Positions 1 through 6,066 of a stretch of DNA of 64,000 bases are shown piece after piece. The position numbers and the translations under genes are program-made. This DNA comes from Burkholderia vietnamiensis LMG 10929 (GTDB taxonomy: Bacteria; Pseudomonadota; Gammaproteobacteria; Burkholderiales; Burkholderiaceae): NCBI RefSeq assembly GCF_000959445.1, contig NZ_CP009632.1, forward strand, positions 992,001 to 1,056,000, read 5' to 3'. Below the pieces are notes generated by a model that saw only the letters and a program-made list of their open reading frames with translations, was not told the origin of the DNA and did no database searches. Each line of letters begins with the position of its first letter. Within the stretch, counting starts at the first letter, position 1.

Positions 1-1027
1 CGCCGGCGACGAGCCCCGCAGGCAGGTTGTTGACGAGGTTCGACGCCAGCGCGATGGCGACGCCCGACGCGGCCGCCGCATGCGCCGTACCGCCGGCCGT
101 CAGCGTGCGCAGCAACGCCGCCAGCGCATCCACCGCGCCGGTCCGCTCGAGCGCCTCGACCAGCACGAACAGTCCGGCCACGAGCGGCAGCACGCTCCAC
201 GAAATCGCGCGCAGCGTCGGCCCGCAGGCCGCGCGATCGCGCGCCAGCACACAGGCCGCGGTCAGCGCGCCGGCCAGCGCAGTCGGCAAGCCGAGCGGCC
301 GGTCGAGCAGCGACACGATCATCAGTGCGGCGGCCGTCGCCGCGATGCCGGCCAACGCGATGCGCGCGCCCGCGCTCAGCGAGGGCACCGGCAGATCGCA
401 CGCACACCGGCCGCGCAACGCGTGACGCTGCGTCGCGCGCAGCATCGCGTAGGTACACGCGATCGACGCGATGGACGGCAGCGCGAAGCGTGCGAGCCAG
501 GTGCCGAGCGCGGGCATGTGCGCACCGTACAGCACGAGATTCGCGGGGTTCGAGATCGGCAGCACGAAGCTCGCCGCGTTCGCGACGAACGCGCAGACGT
601 ACAGCAGCGGCAGCGGGTCCGTCTTCGCGCGGCGCGCAGCCGCGAACACGGCCGGCGTCAGCACGACGGCGGTCGCGTCGTTCGACAGGAACACGGTCGT
701 GACGGTGCCGACCAGATAGACGAGCGCGAACAGCCGCCGCGGCGAACCGCGCGCGCCGTTCACGACGTGGGCCGCGACCCAGTCGAACAACCCCTCGCGC
801 CGCGCCACTTCGGACAGCAGCATCATCCCGGTCAGGAACGGGTACACGTCGCCGCCTTTCGCCACGGCCGCGAGCGCCGCGTCGGCCGGCAACAGGCCGA
901 GGGCGACCAGCAGCACCGCGCCGGCCACGGCCCAGATCGCCTCGGGCCAGCCGAACGGCCGCACGATCACGCCGGCGGTCGCGAGCGCGGCGATCGACCA
1001 CGCGAACGGAGCGGAATTCATCGGCAT
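1..1027 (-). CDS. ArsB/SLC13-like inner-membrane anion transporter (3' end outside window)
   Basis: The visible part (about 342 residues, N-terminal) is almost entirely hydrophobic helices and contains the FLSNDATAVVLTP and FVLPISNPANLVLYG segments. These resemble the two pseudo-symmetric re-entrant regions of the ArsB/NhaD branch of ion transporters, which export arsenite or other ions across the inner membrane. Translation can begin at 1027 (MPMNSAPF) or at the in-frame ATG at 1021. The coding end lies left of the window. It starts 32 bp after the MFS gene on the same strand, so it probably belongs to the unit driven from the sigma-54 promoter near 3070. No arsR, arsC or arsH is visible nearby, so arsenite as substrate is not supported; the substrate is unknown. 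Confidence 0.75.
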   Translation of the reverse strand, partial: MPMNSAPFAWSIAALATAGVIVRPFGWPEAIWAVAGAVLLVALGLLPADAALAAVAKGGDVYPFLTGMMLLSEVARREGLFDWVAAHVVNGARGSPRRLFALVYLVGTVTTVFLSNDATAVVLTPAVFAAARRAKTDPLPLLYVCAFVANAASFVLPISNPANLVLYGAHMPALGTWLARFALPSIASIACTYAMLRATQRHALRGRCACDLPVPSLSAGARIALAGIAATAAALMIVSLLDRPLGLPTALAGALTAACVLARDRAACGPTLRAISWSVLPLVAGLFVLVEALERTGAVDALAALLRTLTAGGTAHAAAASGVAIALASNLVNNLPAGLVAG

Positions 1028-1058
1028 ACCGGGCGGCTGCAATGCATCGACGCGCGCT

Positions 1059-2363
1059 TCATCGCGATGCGACCGGCAGGTCGGCCGGCTCACCGCCGTC
1101 CGCGCCGCCCGGCGGCTTGCCGCACGCCGCGCGCAGCGAGCGCGCATAGCCGAGCCACAGCGCGAGCGAGCCGGTCGACACCGCGCCCAGCACGACGAAC
1201 GCGACCGGATAACCGTAATGCTGCGCGAGTACGCCGCCGAGCGTCGGGCTGAGCGCCGCGCCGATGCCCTGCACGGTCGCGACCGCGCCCTGCCCGGCGT
1301 TCACGTGGCCCGTGCCGTCGAGCAGGCGCACGACGAGCGCCGGCACGACGACGCTTTGCAGGCCGGCGCCGATCCCGTCGAGGATCTGCACCGGCCACAC
1401 GCCGGCCTCGCTCATCAGCGCGGCCGCGAGCACGCCGCGCAGCGGCAGCGCCAGATACGACAGCAGCAGCACGCACCAGTATCCGTGCGCACGAATCAGC
1501 CGCGGCGCGCACCACGCCGCCGCGATCATCACGCATTGCGCGATCACGATGGTCTGCGCGGTAAACACGCTCGGATCGCTGCGGTGCGCGGCGACGACGC
1601 CCATTCCGTACAGCGGCAGCATCGCCGCGTTGCCGAGATGGAACAGCGCGAGCGATACGCCGAGCAGCACCAGCGGCCGGTTCGCGGCCACCGAGCGCCA
1701 TGCGCGCGCAGGCCGCGCCGCGCCGCCGGCCGAGCGGCCGCGATCCGACGCCGGCTCGCCGCGCGCGCGGCCGGCTGCGTCGTCCGGCATCGCGAGGCCG
1801 CGCGCGCACGCATGGTCGATCGCCCGCGCCGGAATCGCGCACGCGCTCACGATCGCGAGCACCGCGAACGCGGCGACGAGCGCGAACACGGCATCGAATC
1901 CCGCGTGCCAGCCGAGCCAGCCGGCGAGTGCGGCGCCGACCACGTTGCCGGCGTGATTCGCCATCTGGTTGCGGCCGAACTGGCGGTCGAAGCCCTGTCT
2001 GCGCGCGATGCCGAGCGTCATGCCGGCGATGGCCGGCGCGAGCGCCGCGCCGCACACCGCGGCCACGACCTGCGATGCGGCGACGGCCCCGTAGCCGTCG
2101 GCGAAACGCAGCGTCAGCGACGCGAGCGCGGTCGCGGCTGTCGCGCAGACGATCAGCAGCCGCTTCGCGCGCAGCGCGTCGACGAGCGCGCCGGCGGCCG
2201 GCGTCGCGGCCATCGCCGCGAGCCCGGCGAGCGTCATCACGGAGCCGATCGCGTCGGCGCTCCACCCGCGCGACAGCAGGATCACGCCGGCGAACGGGCC
2301 GATCCCGGCCTGCACGTCGGCGATGAAGAAGTTGAGCGCCTCGAGCGCGCGCGCCGGTCGCAT
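1059..2363 (-). CDS. MFS transporter, 12-TM type
   Basis: This 434-residue protein consists of about twelve hydrophobic helices with a basic, polar central loop (roughly residues 200-240), the usual two-bundle major facilitator layout. The start is taken at MRPARALEALNFF, because the longer open frame upstream would run into the preceding gene. The conserved first-helix text (NFFIADVQAGIGPFAGVIL) matches a proteobacterial MFS branch of unknown substrate, often annotated as a putative drug or metabolite exporter. It lies 13 bp after the OB-fold-like gene and 31 bp before the ArsB-like gene, all on one strand. I infer cotranscription and control by the upstream kinase/regulator pair. The substrate cannot be read from sequence. 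Confidence 0.85.
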   Translation of the reverse strand: MRPARALEALNFFIADVQAGIGPFAGVILLSRGWSADAIGSVMTLAGLAAMAATPAAGALVDALRAKRLLIVCATAATALASLTLRFADGYGAVAASQVVAAVCGAALAPAIAGMTLGIARRQGFDRQFGRNQMANHAGNVVGAALAGWLGWHAGFDAVFALVAAFAVLAIVSACAIPARAIDHACARGLAMPDDAAGRARGEPASDRGRSAGGAARPARAWRSVAANRPLVLLGVSLALFHLGNAAMLPLYGMGVVAAHRSDPSVFTAQTIVIAQCVMIAAAWCAPRLIRAHGYWCVLLLSYLALPLRGVLAAALMSEAGVWPVQILDGIGAGLQSVVVPALVVRLLDGTGHVNAGQGAVATVQGIGAALSPTLGGVLAQHYGYPVAFVVLGAVSTGSLALWLGYARSLRAACGKPPGGADGGEPADLPVASR

Positions 2364-2376
2364 GGTCGCCGCGCGT

Positions 2377-2922
2377 TCAGTCGGCCGGCGCATCGACGAG
2401 CTCGGCGATCTCGACGACGTCGATCGTCGTGCCGTGCGGCGTGACGACCGCATCGCCCCACACCTGCACGTGCGTGCCGGGACGCAGGTAGTCGGCGAGT
2501 TCGGCGGCCGCGTGCGGCGGCATGCGCAGCGCCGCGCCGCTCGTCAGCAGCGCGCCGTTGCACTCGCCGCGCGGGCCATGCAGCGCGAACGCGATCTGGC
2601 CGCACAGGTCGATCGGCTCGCGGGCGGGATGCGGCCGCGCATGCGGTTCGGGGCCGGGGCCGGTGTCGACCAGCTCGGCGCCGTCGCGAGCGGTCAGCTG
2701 CACGGCCGCCACCATGTCGGCGCCGCGCGGCTTGACGCCGCGCACGCGGATGCGGTCGCCGCTGGCCACGTGCCGCACCAGCGCGCGGCCGAGATGCGGC
2801 GGCACATGAACCTGCAGTTGGCCGTCGAGGATCAGCCCGTCGACTTCGCCATGCGGGTTGAGCAAAAACTGCGTGACGCGGCCGCGCGTTTCGGGCAGGC
2901 ACGCCGGATCGATCCAGTGCAT
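2377..2922 (-). CDS. Conserved hypothetical protein, two OB-fold-like repeats
   Basis: This is a 181-residue soluble protein without signal peptide or membrane segment. It looks like two related beta-rich halves: residues 1-80 (GRVTQFLLNPHGEVDGLIL, then a GDRIRVRG turn) and residues 100-181 (IDLCGQIAFALHGPRGECNGALL, then a GTHVQVWG turn). The strand-turn-Gly pattern suggests OB folds, which usually bind nucleic acid or small ligands, but I do not recognise the family by name. The ATG at 2922 is preceded by a GAGG ribosome binding site. It is the first gene after a consensus sigma-54 promoter (3067-3082), leaving a leader of about 134 nt, and is followed closely by two transporter genes. Function unknown. 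Confidence 0.8.
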   Translation of the reverse strand: MHWIDPACLPETRGRVTQFLLNPHGEVDGLILDGQLQVHVPPHLGRALVRHVASGDRIRVRGVKPRGADMVAAVQLTARDGAELVDTGPGPEPHARPHPAREPIDLCGQIAFALHGPRGECNGALLTSGAALRMPPHAAAELADYLRPGTHVQVWGDAVVTPHGTTIDVVEIAELVDAPAD

Positions 2923-3066
2923 CGTGGGGTCCTCATCGGAGTGTCGCCGCAGGCGTCGCACCGAGGGCCGCGGCGTACGCTGCGGCGGCCGGGCGGCGCG
3001 CAGCGTCGAACGCGCGGCGACGGCGGCGTGACGGACCGCGACGACGGGTTGCGGTCCGCCTCTCTT

Positions 3067-3082
3067 TGCAAACGCCGTGCCA
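3067..3082 (-). promoter_or_regulatory. Sigma-54 (-24/-12) promoter
   Basis: Read on the minus strand this is TGGCACGGCGTTTGCA, matching the RpoN consensus TGGCAC-N5-TTGCW with correct GG to GC spacing. It predicts transcription starting near 3056 toward the OB-fold-like gene. A sigma-54 activator gene lies directly upstream and tandem enhancer-like sites lie at 3134-3184. Confidence 0.85.
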
Positions 3083-3133
3083 GTGCGCGCAGGCCCGCGC
3101 GGCCGTGCGGCGATCGCGGCGGTCACGCCCCAG

Positions 3134-3184
3134 GTGTCGGAAAGACGGACAGCAGCAGCCGGCCGGTGTCGGGAAACCCGACAC
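3134..3184. promoter_or_regulatory. Tandem enhancer-like sites for an NtrC-family regulator
   Basis: Two 19-bp copies of one motif are present. Site 2 (3166-3184) is a perfect palindrome, GTGTCGG-GAAAC-CCGACAC. Site 1 (3134-3152) is an imperfect version with GTGTCGG on the left and CGGACAG on the right. They start 32 bp apart, about three helical turns, and are centred near -119 and -87 from the predicted start of the sigma-54 promoter. That is the normal arrangement for two dimers of a FIS-type HTH activator. Site 2 lies 12 bp after the regulator's stop codon and, with a 9-bp stem at 3165-3185, may also act as a transcript hairpin. Confidence 0.7.
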
Positions 3185-3196
3185 CCGCTGCGCCGT

Positions 3197-4585
3197 TCAG
3201 TCGTCGCGCTCGATGCCGAGGCTCGCCATCCGCGCGTACAGCGACTGGCGGCCGATGCCGAGCTGCCGCGCCGCCTGCGCGCGATTGCCGTTCGCGAGCG
3301 CCAATGCGCGCAGGATCGCGGCGCGCTCGACCGTCGCGAGCGCATCGGGCAGCGGCAGATCGAACAGGTACGCGGGCAGCGCGTCGTCCGCGGGCGCCGC
3401 CGACGCCGACGCTGATGCCAAGCCGAGCGCGAGATCGGCCGCGCCGATCGCGGGCCCGGGCGCGAGCGCAGCCGCGCGCTCCATCACGTTGCGCAGTTCG
3501 CGCACGTTGCCGGGCCAGCGGTGCGCGAGCAGCGCGCGCTGCGCATCGTTGGTCAGATACAGCGCACGCGCGCCGGCCGCGCGCTCGAGAAAATGCGCGG
3601 CGAGCGGCAGGATGTCGGCGACCCGCTCGGCGAGCGGCGGCAGATGCAGCGGGATCACGTTCAGCCGGTAGAACAGGTCTTCGCGGAACGTGCCGTTCGC
3701 CACCGCGGCCGCGAGGTCGCGGTGCGTCGCGGCCACCACGCGGAGGTCGATCGTCGTCGGCCGGTCCGCGCCGAGCGGCGTCACCTGACGCTCCTGCAGC
3801 GCGCGCAGCAGCTTCGCCTGCATCGCGGCCGGCATGTCGCCGATTTCGTCGAGGAACAACGTGCCGCCGTCGGCCTCGACGAGCCGCCCCGCGCGATCCG
3901 CATGCGCGCCGGTGAACGCGCCGCGGCGATGGCCGAACAGTTCGCTCTCGAGCAGCTCGGCCGGCACGGCCGCGCAGTTCACCGCGACGAACGGCCCGGC
4001 ATGCCGCGCCGACGCCGCGTGCAGCACGCGCGCGGCCACTTCCTTGCCGGTGCCGGTTTCGCCGGTGATCAGCACCGTCGCGTCGCTGGTCGCGGCGCGG
4101 CCGAGCTGCTTCTGCACGTCGCGCATCGCGGCGCTCGCGCCGAGCAATCGCGGCCGGTCCGACGCGCTCTCGCCCGCGAACCGGGCCGGTTCGGCGTCGC
4201 CGGCCGGCAGCGGCGCATGCGCGGACACGATGCGCTCGAGCAGGCGCGCGATGTCGTCCCGCCCGACCGGCTTCGTCAGATGATCGAACGCGCCGAGCCG
4301 CATCGCGTCGATCGTGTTGTCGCTGGTCGCATGGGCGGTCAGCATCACGACCGGAATCGCGGCGAGCGCCGGGTCGTCGCGCAATTGCGCGAGCACCGCG
4401 AGGCCGTCGAGGTCCGGCAGCCGGAAGTCGAGGAACACGCAATCGACGCGCGCGCCGTCGCGCAGCGTCGCGAGCGCCGCGCGCGCGGATGCGGCCTCGA
4501 CGACCCGATGACCGAGATCGCCGAGGGTTTCCGCGAGGCCGTCGCGGAATGCGGCGTCGTCGTCGACGATCAGGATGCTTGCCAT
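3197..4585 (-). CDS. Sigma-54-dependent response regulator (NtrC/DctD class)
   Basis: The 462-residue protein has a receiver domain (residues 1-120; acidic pocket VDDD, phosphoacceptor Asp53, LTAH and KP motifs), an AAA+ domain with Walker A GETGTGKE and the sigma-54-contacting GAFTGA loop, and a C-terminal FIS-type helix-turn-helix (NRAQAARQLGIGRQSLYARM). It should bind enhancer DNA and activate RpoN polymerase when phosphorylated. The start at 4585 overlaps the kinase gene by 16 bp, indicating translational coupling. The tandem sites and perfect sigma-54 promoter just downstream make the OB-fold/MFS/ArsB-like genes the obvious target. The receiver is intact; the signal is unknown. Confidence 0.93.
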   Translation of the reverse strand: MASILIVDDDAAFRDGLAETLGDLGHRVVEAASARAALATLRDGARVDCVFLDFRLPDLDGLAVLAQLRDDPALAAIPVVMLTAHATSDNTIDAMRLGAFDHLTKPVGRDDIARLLERIVSAHAPLPAGDAEPARFAGESASDRPRLLGASAAMRDVQKQLGRAATSDATVLITGETGTGKEVAARVLHAASARHAGPFVAVNCAAVPAELLESELFGHRRGAFTGAHADRAGRLVEADGGTLFLDEIGDMPAAMQAKLLRALQERQVTPLGADRPTTIDLRVVAATHRDLAAAVANGTFREDLFYRLNVIPLHLPPLAERVADILPLAAHFLERAAGARALYLTNDAQRALLAHRWPGNVRELRNVMERAAALAPGPAIGAADLALGLASASASAAPADDALPAYLFDLPLPDALATVERAAILRALALANGNRAQAARQLGIGRQSLYARMASLGIERDD

Positions 4586-6066
4586 GGGATCTCGATCACG
4601 AAGGAAGCGCCGCGCGGCGTCGTGTCGACCCACGCGCGGCCGCCGTGCGCCGCGGCCACTTCGCGCACGACCGCGAGGCCGAGGCCGGTGCCGTCCGCCC
4701 GGCCCGTCACGAACGGCTCGAAGATCCGCTCGCGCTGCGCGTCCGGTACGCCTGGCCCCGTATCCGACACCGTGAAGCGGAGCATCGCGCGCCCGTCGGC
4801 CGTCGAGCGCGCGGCCGCGACCGCGACCGCACCGCCGTCGCCCGCGTGGCGCAGCGCGTTGAGCAGCAGGTTGTCGAGCGCACGGCGCATCTGCTCCGCG
4901 TCGAACGCCGGGCCGTCGGCGGGCGCCGCGAAGCGCTCGCCCCGCCCGTCGGGCGTGCACGTCACGGCGATGGATTGCCGCTGCGCGAGCTCGCGATGCG
5001 CATCGACCACCTGCGGCAGCCACGTGTCGAGATCGACGCGCGTCGCGTGCGGGCTCACCGGCTGGGTCAGCGCGAGCAGGCCCGACAGTTGTGCGTCGAT
5101 GCGGGCGATCTGCGCGAGGATGATGCGCAGCGCGTCCTGCTGCCGGCTCACGTCGCCGGCGAGCGCATTCTCCGCCTTCAGCCGCATCGCGCCCATCGGA
5201 TTGCGGATTTCGTGCGCGAGCTGTGCAGCCAGCTTGCCGAGCATCGCGAAGCGCTCGGCCTGCACGAGCCGCGCGCCGAGTTCGCCGGCCTGCTGCTGCA
5301 GGCGTTCGGCCCGCCGCGTGCGCGCGTTGAACGCGTCGATGATGCGGTCGAGATCGGGCTCGCCCACGCGCGGCAGCTGCGCGTCGCGGCCCTCGGTCGA
5401 CAGCGCCGCCTCGATGCGCCCGAGCTTGCGGTTCCAGCCGCGCAGCGCGAACGCGAGCCCCGCCGCGATCGCGAGCAGGACCGCGAGCACCGCCGCCAGC
5501 GCCGTCGCGAGCAACTCGCCATGCCGGCCGAGCGGCGGATGCGCGCGGGTCAGCATCCACGCGAACAGCCCCGGCATGCCGGGCACCGGGCAGGCCGCCG
5601 CGACGACCGCGTCCTGCGCGCCTTCGACCACGCTGGTCGACGCGATGCCGATCGCCGCGCTCGCGCGCAGCGTCCGCACGATCAGCGGCGTTTCGTCCTC
5701 CGGAACGTCGCGCTTGATGCCGCTGCCCTGATAGGTCGGAAACGCATACGCGACGAAGCGGCCGTCGGCGCCGGCGCCGCTGCGCGTCCAGAAGCCGCCT
5801 TCGACGTCCGGCGTGCGGGCGAGCACGATGTCGAGGACGGCGTGCATCCGGTCGGCGTCCGGTTGCGCGCCGGGCGGCGAGCCCGCGCCCGCGTAGCGCG
5901 ACGCGACCGCTGCACACGCCGCCGCGGCCTGGGTGCGCGCATCGGCGATCTGCTCGCTCGCGGCGGAACGCGTGACGATCCACACGAGCGCGACGAGCGT
6001 CGCGCACAGCACGGCAACGAGTGACCACAACATCACGAGCTGGTTGGAAAACGACGGGCGCTTCAT
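4570..6066 (-). CDS. Membrane sensor histidine kinase
   Basis: This 498-residue kinase has a transmembrane helix at residues 10-32, an extracytoplasmic sensor of about 150 residues (33-183), and a second helix at 184-208. A HAMP-like linker and a dimerisation domain follow, with phosphoacceptor His285 in AQLAHEIRNPMGA. The catalytic domain carries an N box (NLLLNALRHAG), a DTGPGVP G1 box and TGLGLAVV. It pairs with the overlapping response-regulator gene. The sensor part is Ala-rich and matches no ligand domain I can name. It probably has its own promoter in the 121-bp gap after xylH, where a terminator-like hairpin separates it from the xyl operon. Confidence 0.92.
   Translation of the reverse strand: MKRPSFSNQLVMLWSLVAVLCATLVALVWIVTRSAASEQIADARTQAAAACAAVASRYAGAGSPPGAQPDADRMHAVLDIVLARTPDVEGGFWTRSGAGADGRFVAYAFPTYQGSGIKRDVPEDETPLIVRTLRASAAIGIASTSVVEGAQDAVVAAACPVPGMPGLFAWMLTRAHPPLGRHGELLATALAAVLAVLLAIAAGLAFALRGWNRKLGRIEAALSTEGRDAQLPRVGEPDLDRIIDAFNARTRRAERLQQQAGELGARLVQAERFAMLGKLAAQLAHEIRNPMGAMRLKAENALAGDVSRQQDALRIILAQIARIDAQLSGLLALTQPVSPHATRVDLDTWLPQVVDAHRELAQRQSIAVTCTPDGRGERFAAPADGPAFDAEQMRRALDNLLLNALRHAGDGGAVAVAAARSTADGRAMLRFTVSDTGPGVPDAQRERIFEPFVTGRADGTGLGLAVVREVAAAHGGRAWVDTTPRGASFVIEIPWQAS

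Follow-up and report, generated by a model that had tools for sequence, protein, structure and literature searches.

At the left end of a 64,000-bp window of the Burkholderia vietnamiensis LMG 10929 genome (G000:C4:992001-1056000, on a 1.25-Mb contig of a 6.93-Mb genome; "the window" denotes this whole stretch), genes for a sensor histidine kinase, an NtrC-type response regulator, a tandem OB-fold protein (OB1), an MFS transporter and an ArsB-like transporter follow one another on the minus strand, with a regulatory gap between the regulator and OB1. Comparison across 299 genomes of the family shows that one conserved regulatory element, a predicted sigma-54 (-24/-12) promoter with paired upstream palindromes, accompanies this kinase/regulator pair and its OB-fold and transporter genes. 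We propose that the module serves as a dedicated sigma-54 stress/export switch, a reading to which we assign a probability of roughly 60%. An initial annotation of the same DNA had listed these parts in this order on a single strand, and all were found as placed:

4570-6066, minus strand: sensor histidine kinase, 498 aa (Pfam HisKA, HATPase_c)
3197-4585, minus strand: NtrC-type response regulator, 462 aa (Pfam Response_reg, Sigma54_activat, HTH_8)
3183-3167, minus strand: distal enhancer-like palindrome TGTC-N9-GACA, TGTCGGGTTTCCCGACA (pattern match)
3151-3135, minus strand: proximal enhancer-like palindrome TGTC-N9-GACA, TGTCCGTCTTTCCGACA (pattern match)
3082-3067, minus strand: putative sigma-54 (-24/-12) promoter, TGGCACGGCGTTTGCA (pattern match and comparison)
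2377-2922, minus strand: OB1, 181-aa tandem OB-fold protein (model, fold comparison)
1059-2363, minus strand: MFS transporter, 434 aa with the start used (Pfam MFS_1)
1-1021 in the window, running past its left end, minus strand: ArsB/CitMHS-family transporter, 410 aa (Pfam CitMHS, ArsB)

The genes are closely packed: the regulator starts inside the end of the kinase gene (a 16-bp overlap), and, with the starts used, 13 bp separate OB1 from the MFS gene and 37 bp separate the latter from the ArsB-like gene. An alternative upstream start of the MFS gene at 2453 is likewise open, and 212 bases of the ArsB-like gene, which starts at 1021, lie beyond the left end of the window (L031 9789-11021).

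A conserved putative sigma-54 element precedes the OB gene

The sigma-54 consensus that served for motif searching is general knowledge. Allowing up to one mismatch, TGGCACGGCGTTTGCA is the sole -24/-12 match in the window, where chance predicts 0.50 and at least one turns up in 39 of 100 shuffles; the palindrome pattern gives five matches at the same stringency against a mean of 3.54, four of the five being the two listed sites counted on both strands. Neither promoter nor palindrome thus exceeds chance within the window alone, and the arrangement was therefore tested by comparison across genomes.

OB1 was found in 66 of the 299 genomes (at most 11 candidates scored per genome) and the sensor region of the kinase in 60 (E up to 1e-15, at most 9 candidates scored); 56 genomes have both, four the sensor alone and ten the OB protein alone. 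From the 66 OB genomes we took 81 loci, of which 55 carry regulator and OB gene on one stretch, the modules of G053 and G209 being split over contigs and falling outside this set. The promoter form TGGCAY-N5-TTGC occurs in 53 of the 55 regulator-to-OB gaps (all except those of G249 and G052), against 0.1 expected from shuffles drawn from dinucleotide frequencies rather than by exact dinucleotide permutation. Upstream of it, an exact TGTC-N9-GACA palindrome is present in 48 of the 53 promoter-bearing gaps; other spacer lengths between 4 and 16 gave no exact palindrome there, and 49 of the 53 hold two palindromes with at most one mismatch each (0.02 expected from shuffles drawn in the same way). 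The geometry is similarly constrained: paired palindromes lie 22-23 bp apart in 40 gaps and 31-32 bp apart in nine, about two or three helical turns, and in all but a few cases the centre of the nearer one falls 72-76 bp from the -12 G. Counting upstream from the -12 G, the centres in the window lie at 106 bp (distal) and 74 bp (proximal), a separation of 32 bp, and transcription would start near 3057, in agreement with the 3056 of the initial annotation.

A blind search for the strict composite of promoter and palindromes recovered it in 51 of the 56 genomes with both sensor and OB protein and in 15 of the 243 others (Fisher p = 6e-38, a value that overstates independence because the genomes are related), while a reversed control pattern matched 0 of 299. 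The B. vietnamiensis genome contains it once in 6.93 Mb, before the OB gene. Among the five sensor-and-OB genomes lacking the strict form (G043, G052, G249, G254 and G262), G043, G254 and G262 have the promoter together with one-mismatch sites. As for the 15 matches elsewhere, one (G044) belongs to a related locus beside an MdtABC-type pump, described below, and eight fall in genus g11, whose repeated palindrome is a different one. A chance promoter can be ruled out by this conservation across genomes, even though the window alone is within chance, and the circuit as first annotated, from kinase and regulator through paired enhancers and RpoN promoter to an OB/transporter unit, is well supported by the comparison.

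Two further promoter arrangements were seen. In genus g11 (e.g., G082:C8:203710), TGTCGCA-N3-TGCGACAGGTG recurs with a -24/-12 promoter in eight genomes. The 1.4-kb regulator-OB gap of L057 (G158) contains two putative sigma-54 promoters with sites, which suggests an extra target gene inside that gap.

The element follows rearranged units

In five loci (L052, L053, L162, L163 and L165) the transporter genes are divergent from the kinase, and all five divergent units have a -24/-12 element of their own with at least one exact palindrome, that of L165 lying farther from its promoter than usual. Most compared relatives with the module, unlike this lineage, encode a second and apparently exported OB paralogue, OB2. 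The 24 loci without a regulator comprise 17 with OB1 as the sole OB gene and seven with OB2. The strict promoter is present at all seven OB2 loci (L176 and L194 end at contig ends), and at none of the 17 solo OB1 loci; the element therefore tracks the regulator and OB2-type/transporter units rather than any OB gene. Likewise, the strict composite is found in none of the ten genomes with an OB protein and no sensor match.

The OB2-led clusters of L178, L197, L198 and L199 carry the element with no kinase or regulator in the stretch taken, and consist of an OB2-type gene and a metallophosphoesterase followed, contig permitting, by MFS, ArsB-like and YdcZ-type genes. At L054, an OB2-OB1 locus, the element is present with one one-mismatch site. 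One of those ten, G167 (L062), nevertheless retains fragments of both regulator and kinase, and its promoter is accompanied by two sites with one mismatch each, which leaves nine genomes with OB1 outside any trace of the circuit in the stretch taken. The initial annotation had named, as evidence that would overturn its circuit, genomes in which the two-component and effector genes occur independently with no conserved promoter: the parts do occur apart, but that case was not found as stated, and the promoter is kept in 53 of the 55 loci in which the regulator lies beside the OB gene.

The surroundings vary. By eye, genes resembling a sugar ABC system lie to the right of 6066, upstream of the kinase, and in B. 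stagnalis a xylose-type ABC transporter operon occupies that position (L123 1-3635). On three Caballeronia plasmids (L124, L148 and L149), a solo OB1 gene has a FadR/GntR-type regulator on one side and an amidohydrolase/MFS pair on the other.

Kinase and regulator

The regulator has the receiver, AAA+ and Fis-type helix-turn-helix domains of sigma-54-dependent NtrC-type systems, with intact Walker A (GETGTGKE, at 175) and GAFTGA (at 222) motifs, and the paired sites upstream of a -24/-12 promoter, conserved along with it, are likewise those of this class. The boxes of the kinase are intact as well. Models of better-known pairs fit neither protein at their cut-offs: on NCBIfam, the kinase reaches 127.9 of 479 bits for ZraS and the regulator 362.9 of 760 for ZraR, AtoS and AtoC score 141.9 of 646 and 402.9 of 714, NtrC (NR-I, TIGR01818) 411.3 of 558.6, and GlrR 355.2 against a cut-off of 763. 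Two rpoN (sigma-54) genes occur in the genome (G000:C3:1196573-1197040 and G000:C4:263455-263919), the second on the same contig as the module.

The N-terminal sensor region of the kinase was modelled as a Cache/PDC-like domain flanked by two long helices, in which Cys51 and Cys159 are conserved; a sequence search of solved structures with this region returned no credible match. The kinase is predicted to perceive an extracytoplasmic cue through a Cache/PDC-type domain bearing two invariant cysteines. The modelled fold makes plausible the periplasmic signal that had been proposed at the outset.

The OB proteins

OB1 was modelled as two OB folds with the barrel characteristic of that fold. Pfam gives only a sub-threshold OB-fold match for it and no family above cut-off for any of the OB proteins scanned, and a sequence search of solved structures with the OB protein found no credible match; wherever records name its relatives they are "hypothetical protein", the closest named ones being from Burkholderia species. 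In a structure comparison with the OB1 model, YgiW (1nnx) ranks 41st, surrounded by many other OB folds (78 columns, E 0.016, TM 0.57 by target); it is not among the 50 matches listed in a second comparison. The BOF Pfam model matched neither OB1 nor six relatives at E up to 1. Nucleic-acid binding was considered, as the fold fits SSB/PriB, and set aside with some reserve: the invariant residues are mostly Gly, Pro and Asp, and the protein is acidic (isoelectric point 5.83).

Signal peptides were assessed by eye, and OB1, in which none was seen, is probably cytosolic. In the part of the alignment shown, the position of OB2 is a gap in G000, G268 and G298; the loci of G043, G158, G114 and G067 also gave no OB2 match, and since their OB genes are more divergent, OB2 may have been missed there.

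Feedback on the kinase has been proposed for the periplasmic partners of other sensors. The OB proteins might accordingly be signalling partners in the main, the exported copy feeding back on the kinase and the transporters being secondary cargo. Kinase, regulator and OB gene do form a constant core around which transporters vary (among the 55 loci, MFS in 49, ArsB-like in 34, metallophosphoesterase in nine and YdcZ-type in ten), and neither the Acidiphilium locus L128 nor L139 has a matched transporter of these families near that core. We nonetheless hold such a role to be quite improbable: this lineage has no exported copy, OB2 and transporters cluster together without a kinase, and OB1, if cytosolic, would be out of reach of a periplasmic sensor domain and therefore make no contact with it.

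Transporters and partner genes

The ArsB-like protein scores 148.1 bits on Pfam CitMHS (cut-off 31.9) and 90.5 bits on Pfam ArsB (cut-off 22.2), and only 154.8 of 457 and 130 of 415 bits on the NCBIfam ArsB models. The same figures bear on whether the unit is an arsenite/antimonite resistance operon, as the Pfam match and the "arsenic transporter" label on several records of its relatives would have it; given the NCBIfam scores, and that no ars regulator, reductase or ATPase is named in the annotated stretches examined (whose gene tables are incomplete), there is very little chance of this.

The main rival to a stress/export switch is organic-anion uptake: in the manner of DctB/DctD or CitA, the sensor would bind an organic anion, the CitMHS-type and MFS proteins would import, and the OB protein would be an accessory. 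Against it, the Cache/PDC fold is used for signals of many kinds, with WalK and several chemoreceptors obtaining similar scores against the modelled region. No catabolic gene recurred in the gene orders examined, where the systematic search covered the partner families. Those partners are MFS, metallophosphoesterase and YdcZ (in Pfam a "putative inner membrane exporter"), the latter two joining the unit in some relatives; elsewhere in the B. vietnamiensis genome the metallophosphoesterase has only a weak 30% match. As five sister systems moreover adjoin an efflux-type pump, we consider uptake improbable.

Sister systems and distribution

We examined seven related kinase/regulator pairs that lack an OB gene. 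Five of them (L156-L160) adjoin an MdtABC-type RND pump. In L156 the pump matches the MdtA, MdtB and MdtC models without reaching the equivalog cut-offs, and in L157-L160 it matches ACR_tran; at all five loci a -24/-12 element is accompanied by one or more exact TGTC-N9-GACA sites. These pairs resemble the module in their sensor, with both cysteines present in the four checked of the five, and in their NtrC-type regulator; they differ in adjoining a pump instead of OB, MFS and ArsB-like genes and in having Arg in place of Lys118 (four checked). The other two, L154 and L155, precede adjoining genes for a methyl-accepting chemotaxis protein and CheW (by Pfam in L155, by eye in L154). Induced export, as put forward in the initial annotation, is favoured by the transporter families and the five pump-associated pairs, and the two chemotaxis-associated pairs do not favour it. 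G063 has a second composite element, which lies after the gene for a related regulator (L212, G063:C6:138540).

Within the family, the module occurs in 8 of the 25 genera sampled, and it extends to some Alphaproteobacteria; the kinase-regulator-OB order is also seen in Bradyrhizobium barranii and Acidiphilium multivorum plasmids. Methylocystis sp. MJC1 has a run of OB, CHASE3-domain protein, kinase, regulator, MFS, anion-transporter and DMT genes, and on a Spirosoma plasmid DMT, metallophosphoesterase, ArsB-like and OB genes form a group, the annotation of that stretch showing no kinase. Plasmids of Rhizobium, Novosphingobium, Sphingomonas and Acetobacter carry MFS and ArsB-like pairs with no OB match and no NtrC-type pair annotated alongside (gene tables incomplete). 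The transporter pair therefore seems to be an independent unit that was brought under this switch.

Relation to known systems

The system comes nearest in working style to ZraSR-ZraP and to the kinase/SipA pair, and its scores and Pfam matches place it in neither family. ZraSR-ZraP (HydHG) is linked to envelope stress: its kinase and NtrC-type regulator control sigma-54 promoters, among them that of a periplasmic protein (PMC4987338). The pair in the window is alike in its kinase and NtrC-type regulator with sigma-54 promoter; it differs in that the ZraS and ZraR cut-offs are not reached, an OB-fold protein serves as the effector and shares its unit with transporter genes, and the strict composite stands in this genome only before the OB gene, whereas the kinase-regulator genes of ZraSR have a sigma-54 promoter of their own. 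As far as the covered portions go, VC1638/VC1639 of Vibrio cholerae induces SipA (VCA0732), a periplasmic OB-fold stress protein homologous to YgiW/VisP and reported to bind antimicrobial peptides (PMC5636140, PMC6370654). Here, too, a two-component system is paired with an OB-fold protein, but OB1 has no BOF Pfam match, two OB repeats in its model and no signal peptide by eye, and the unit includes a sigma-54 promoter and transporters.

The site given for the sigma-54 regulator GlrR in the portion of PMC4987338 covered, TGTC(N)10GACA, has half-sites identical to those of the putative enhancers and likewise belongs to an enhancer-binding regulator; the spacer differs, being N9 in 48 and N10 in none of the 53 gaps, and the GlrR cut-off is not reached. 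DzrR was dropped from the comparison, its box being a CTCCAT direct repeat and the covered portion of its source not calling it sigma-54 dependent (PMC10052836). The portion covered of a B. cenocepacia expression paper (PMC3244429) has nothing on these genes, and among the papers listed by a literature search, with most subscription journals outside it, none appeared to be about this kinase/OB/transporter system.

A putative stress/export switch

Together, these comparisons suggest a circuit in which the kinase would perceive an extracytoplasmic cue through its Cache/PDC-type domain, the phosphorylated regulator would bind the two TGTC-N9-GACA palindromes and loop to sigma-54 RNA polymerase at 3067-3082, and the activated promoter would induce OB1, the MFS transporter and the ArsB/CitMHS-type transporter. 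More tentatively, either the inducer or a product of the stress might be bound or buffered by OB1, joined in most compared relatives by the apparently exported second copy, and expelled from the cell by the transporters. A bolder version, which we think rather unlikely, would make this an undescribed sigma-54 stress system. In it, a Cache-type sensor whose invariant cysteine pair forms a disulfide or thiol switch would induce a matched pair of tandem OB carriers, one cytosolic and one exported; the two would capture the same toxic compound on either face of the inner membrane and pass it on to exporters of the MFS and ArsB/CitMHS types.

Beyond the chance level of its motifs in the window, several observations weigh against a stress/export switch. 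The case is built on sequence comparison, and kinship among the genomes makes their counts non-independent. Nine of the 66 OB genomes have OB1 with no sensor match and no regulator in the stretch taken, so that OB1 would have work outside the circuit, and 5 of the 17 solo OB1 loci (L050, L059, L064, L070 and L190) show weaker promoter-like matches. Of the 55 loci, contig ends included, 6 lack a match to the MFS gene and 21 a match to the ArsB-like gene. The transporter families settle neither direction nor substrate, the ArsB-like protein scoring higher on CitMHS than on ArsB in Pfam and falling far below the NCBIfam ArsB models, and the chemotaxis neighbours of L154 and L155 argue against every member of the sensor family being an export switch. 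The initial interpretation is thus partly supported, and it had omitted OB2, the metallophosphoesterase and YdcZ-type partners, and the split units that retain the element.

Because the geometry of promoter and enhancers is nearly fixed, the regulon of this switch should be legible from sequence, and a reporter on the promoter would provide a direct screen for the inducing signal. Sigma-54 stress systems would gain a member whose effector is an OB-fold protein accompanied by transporters.

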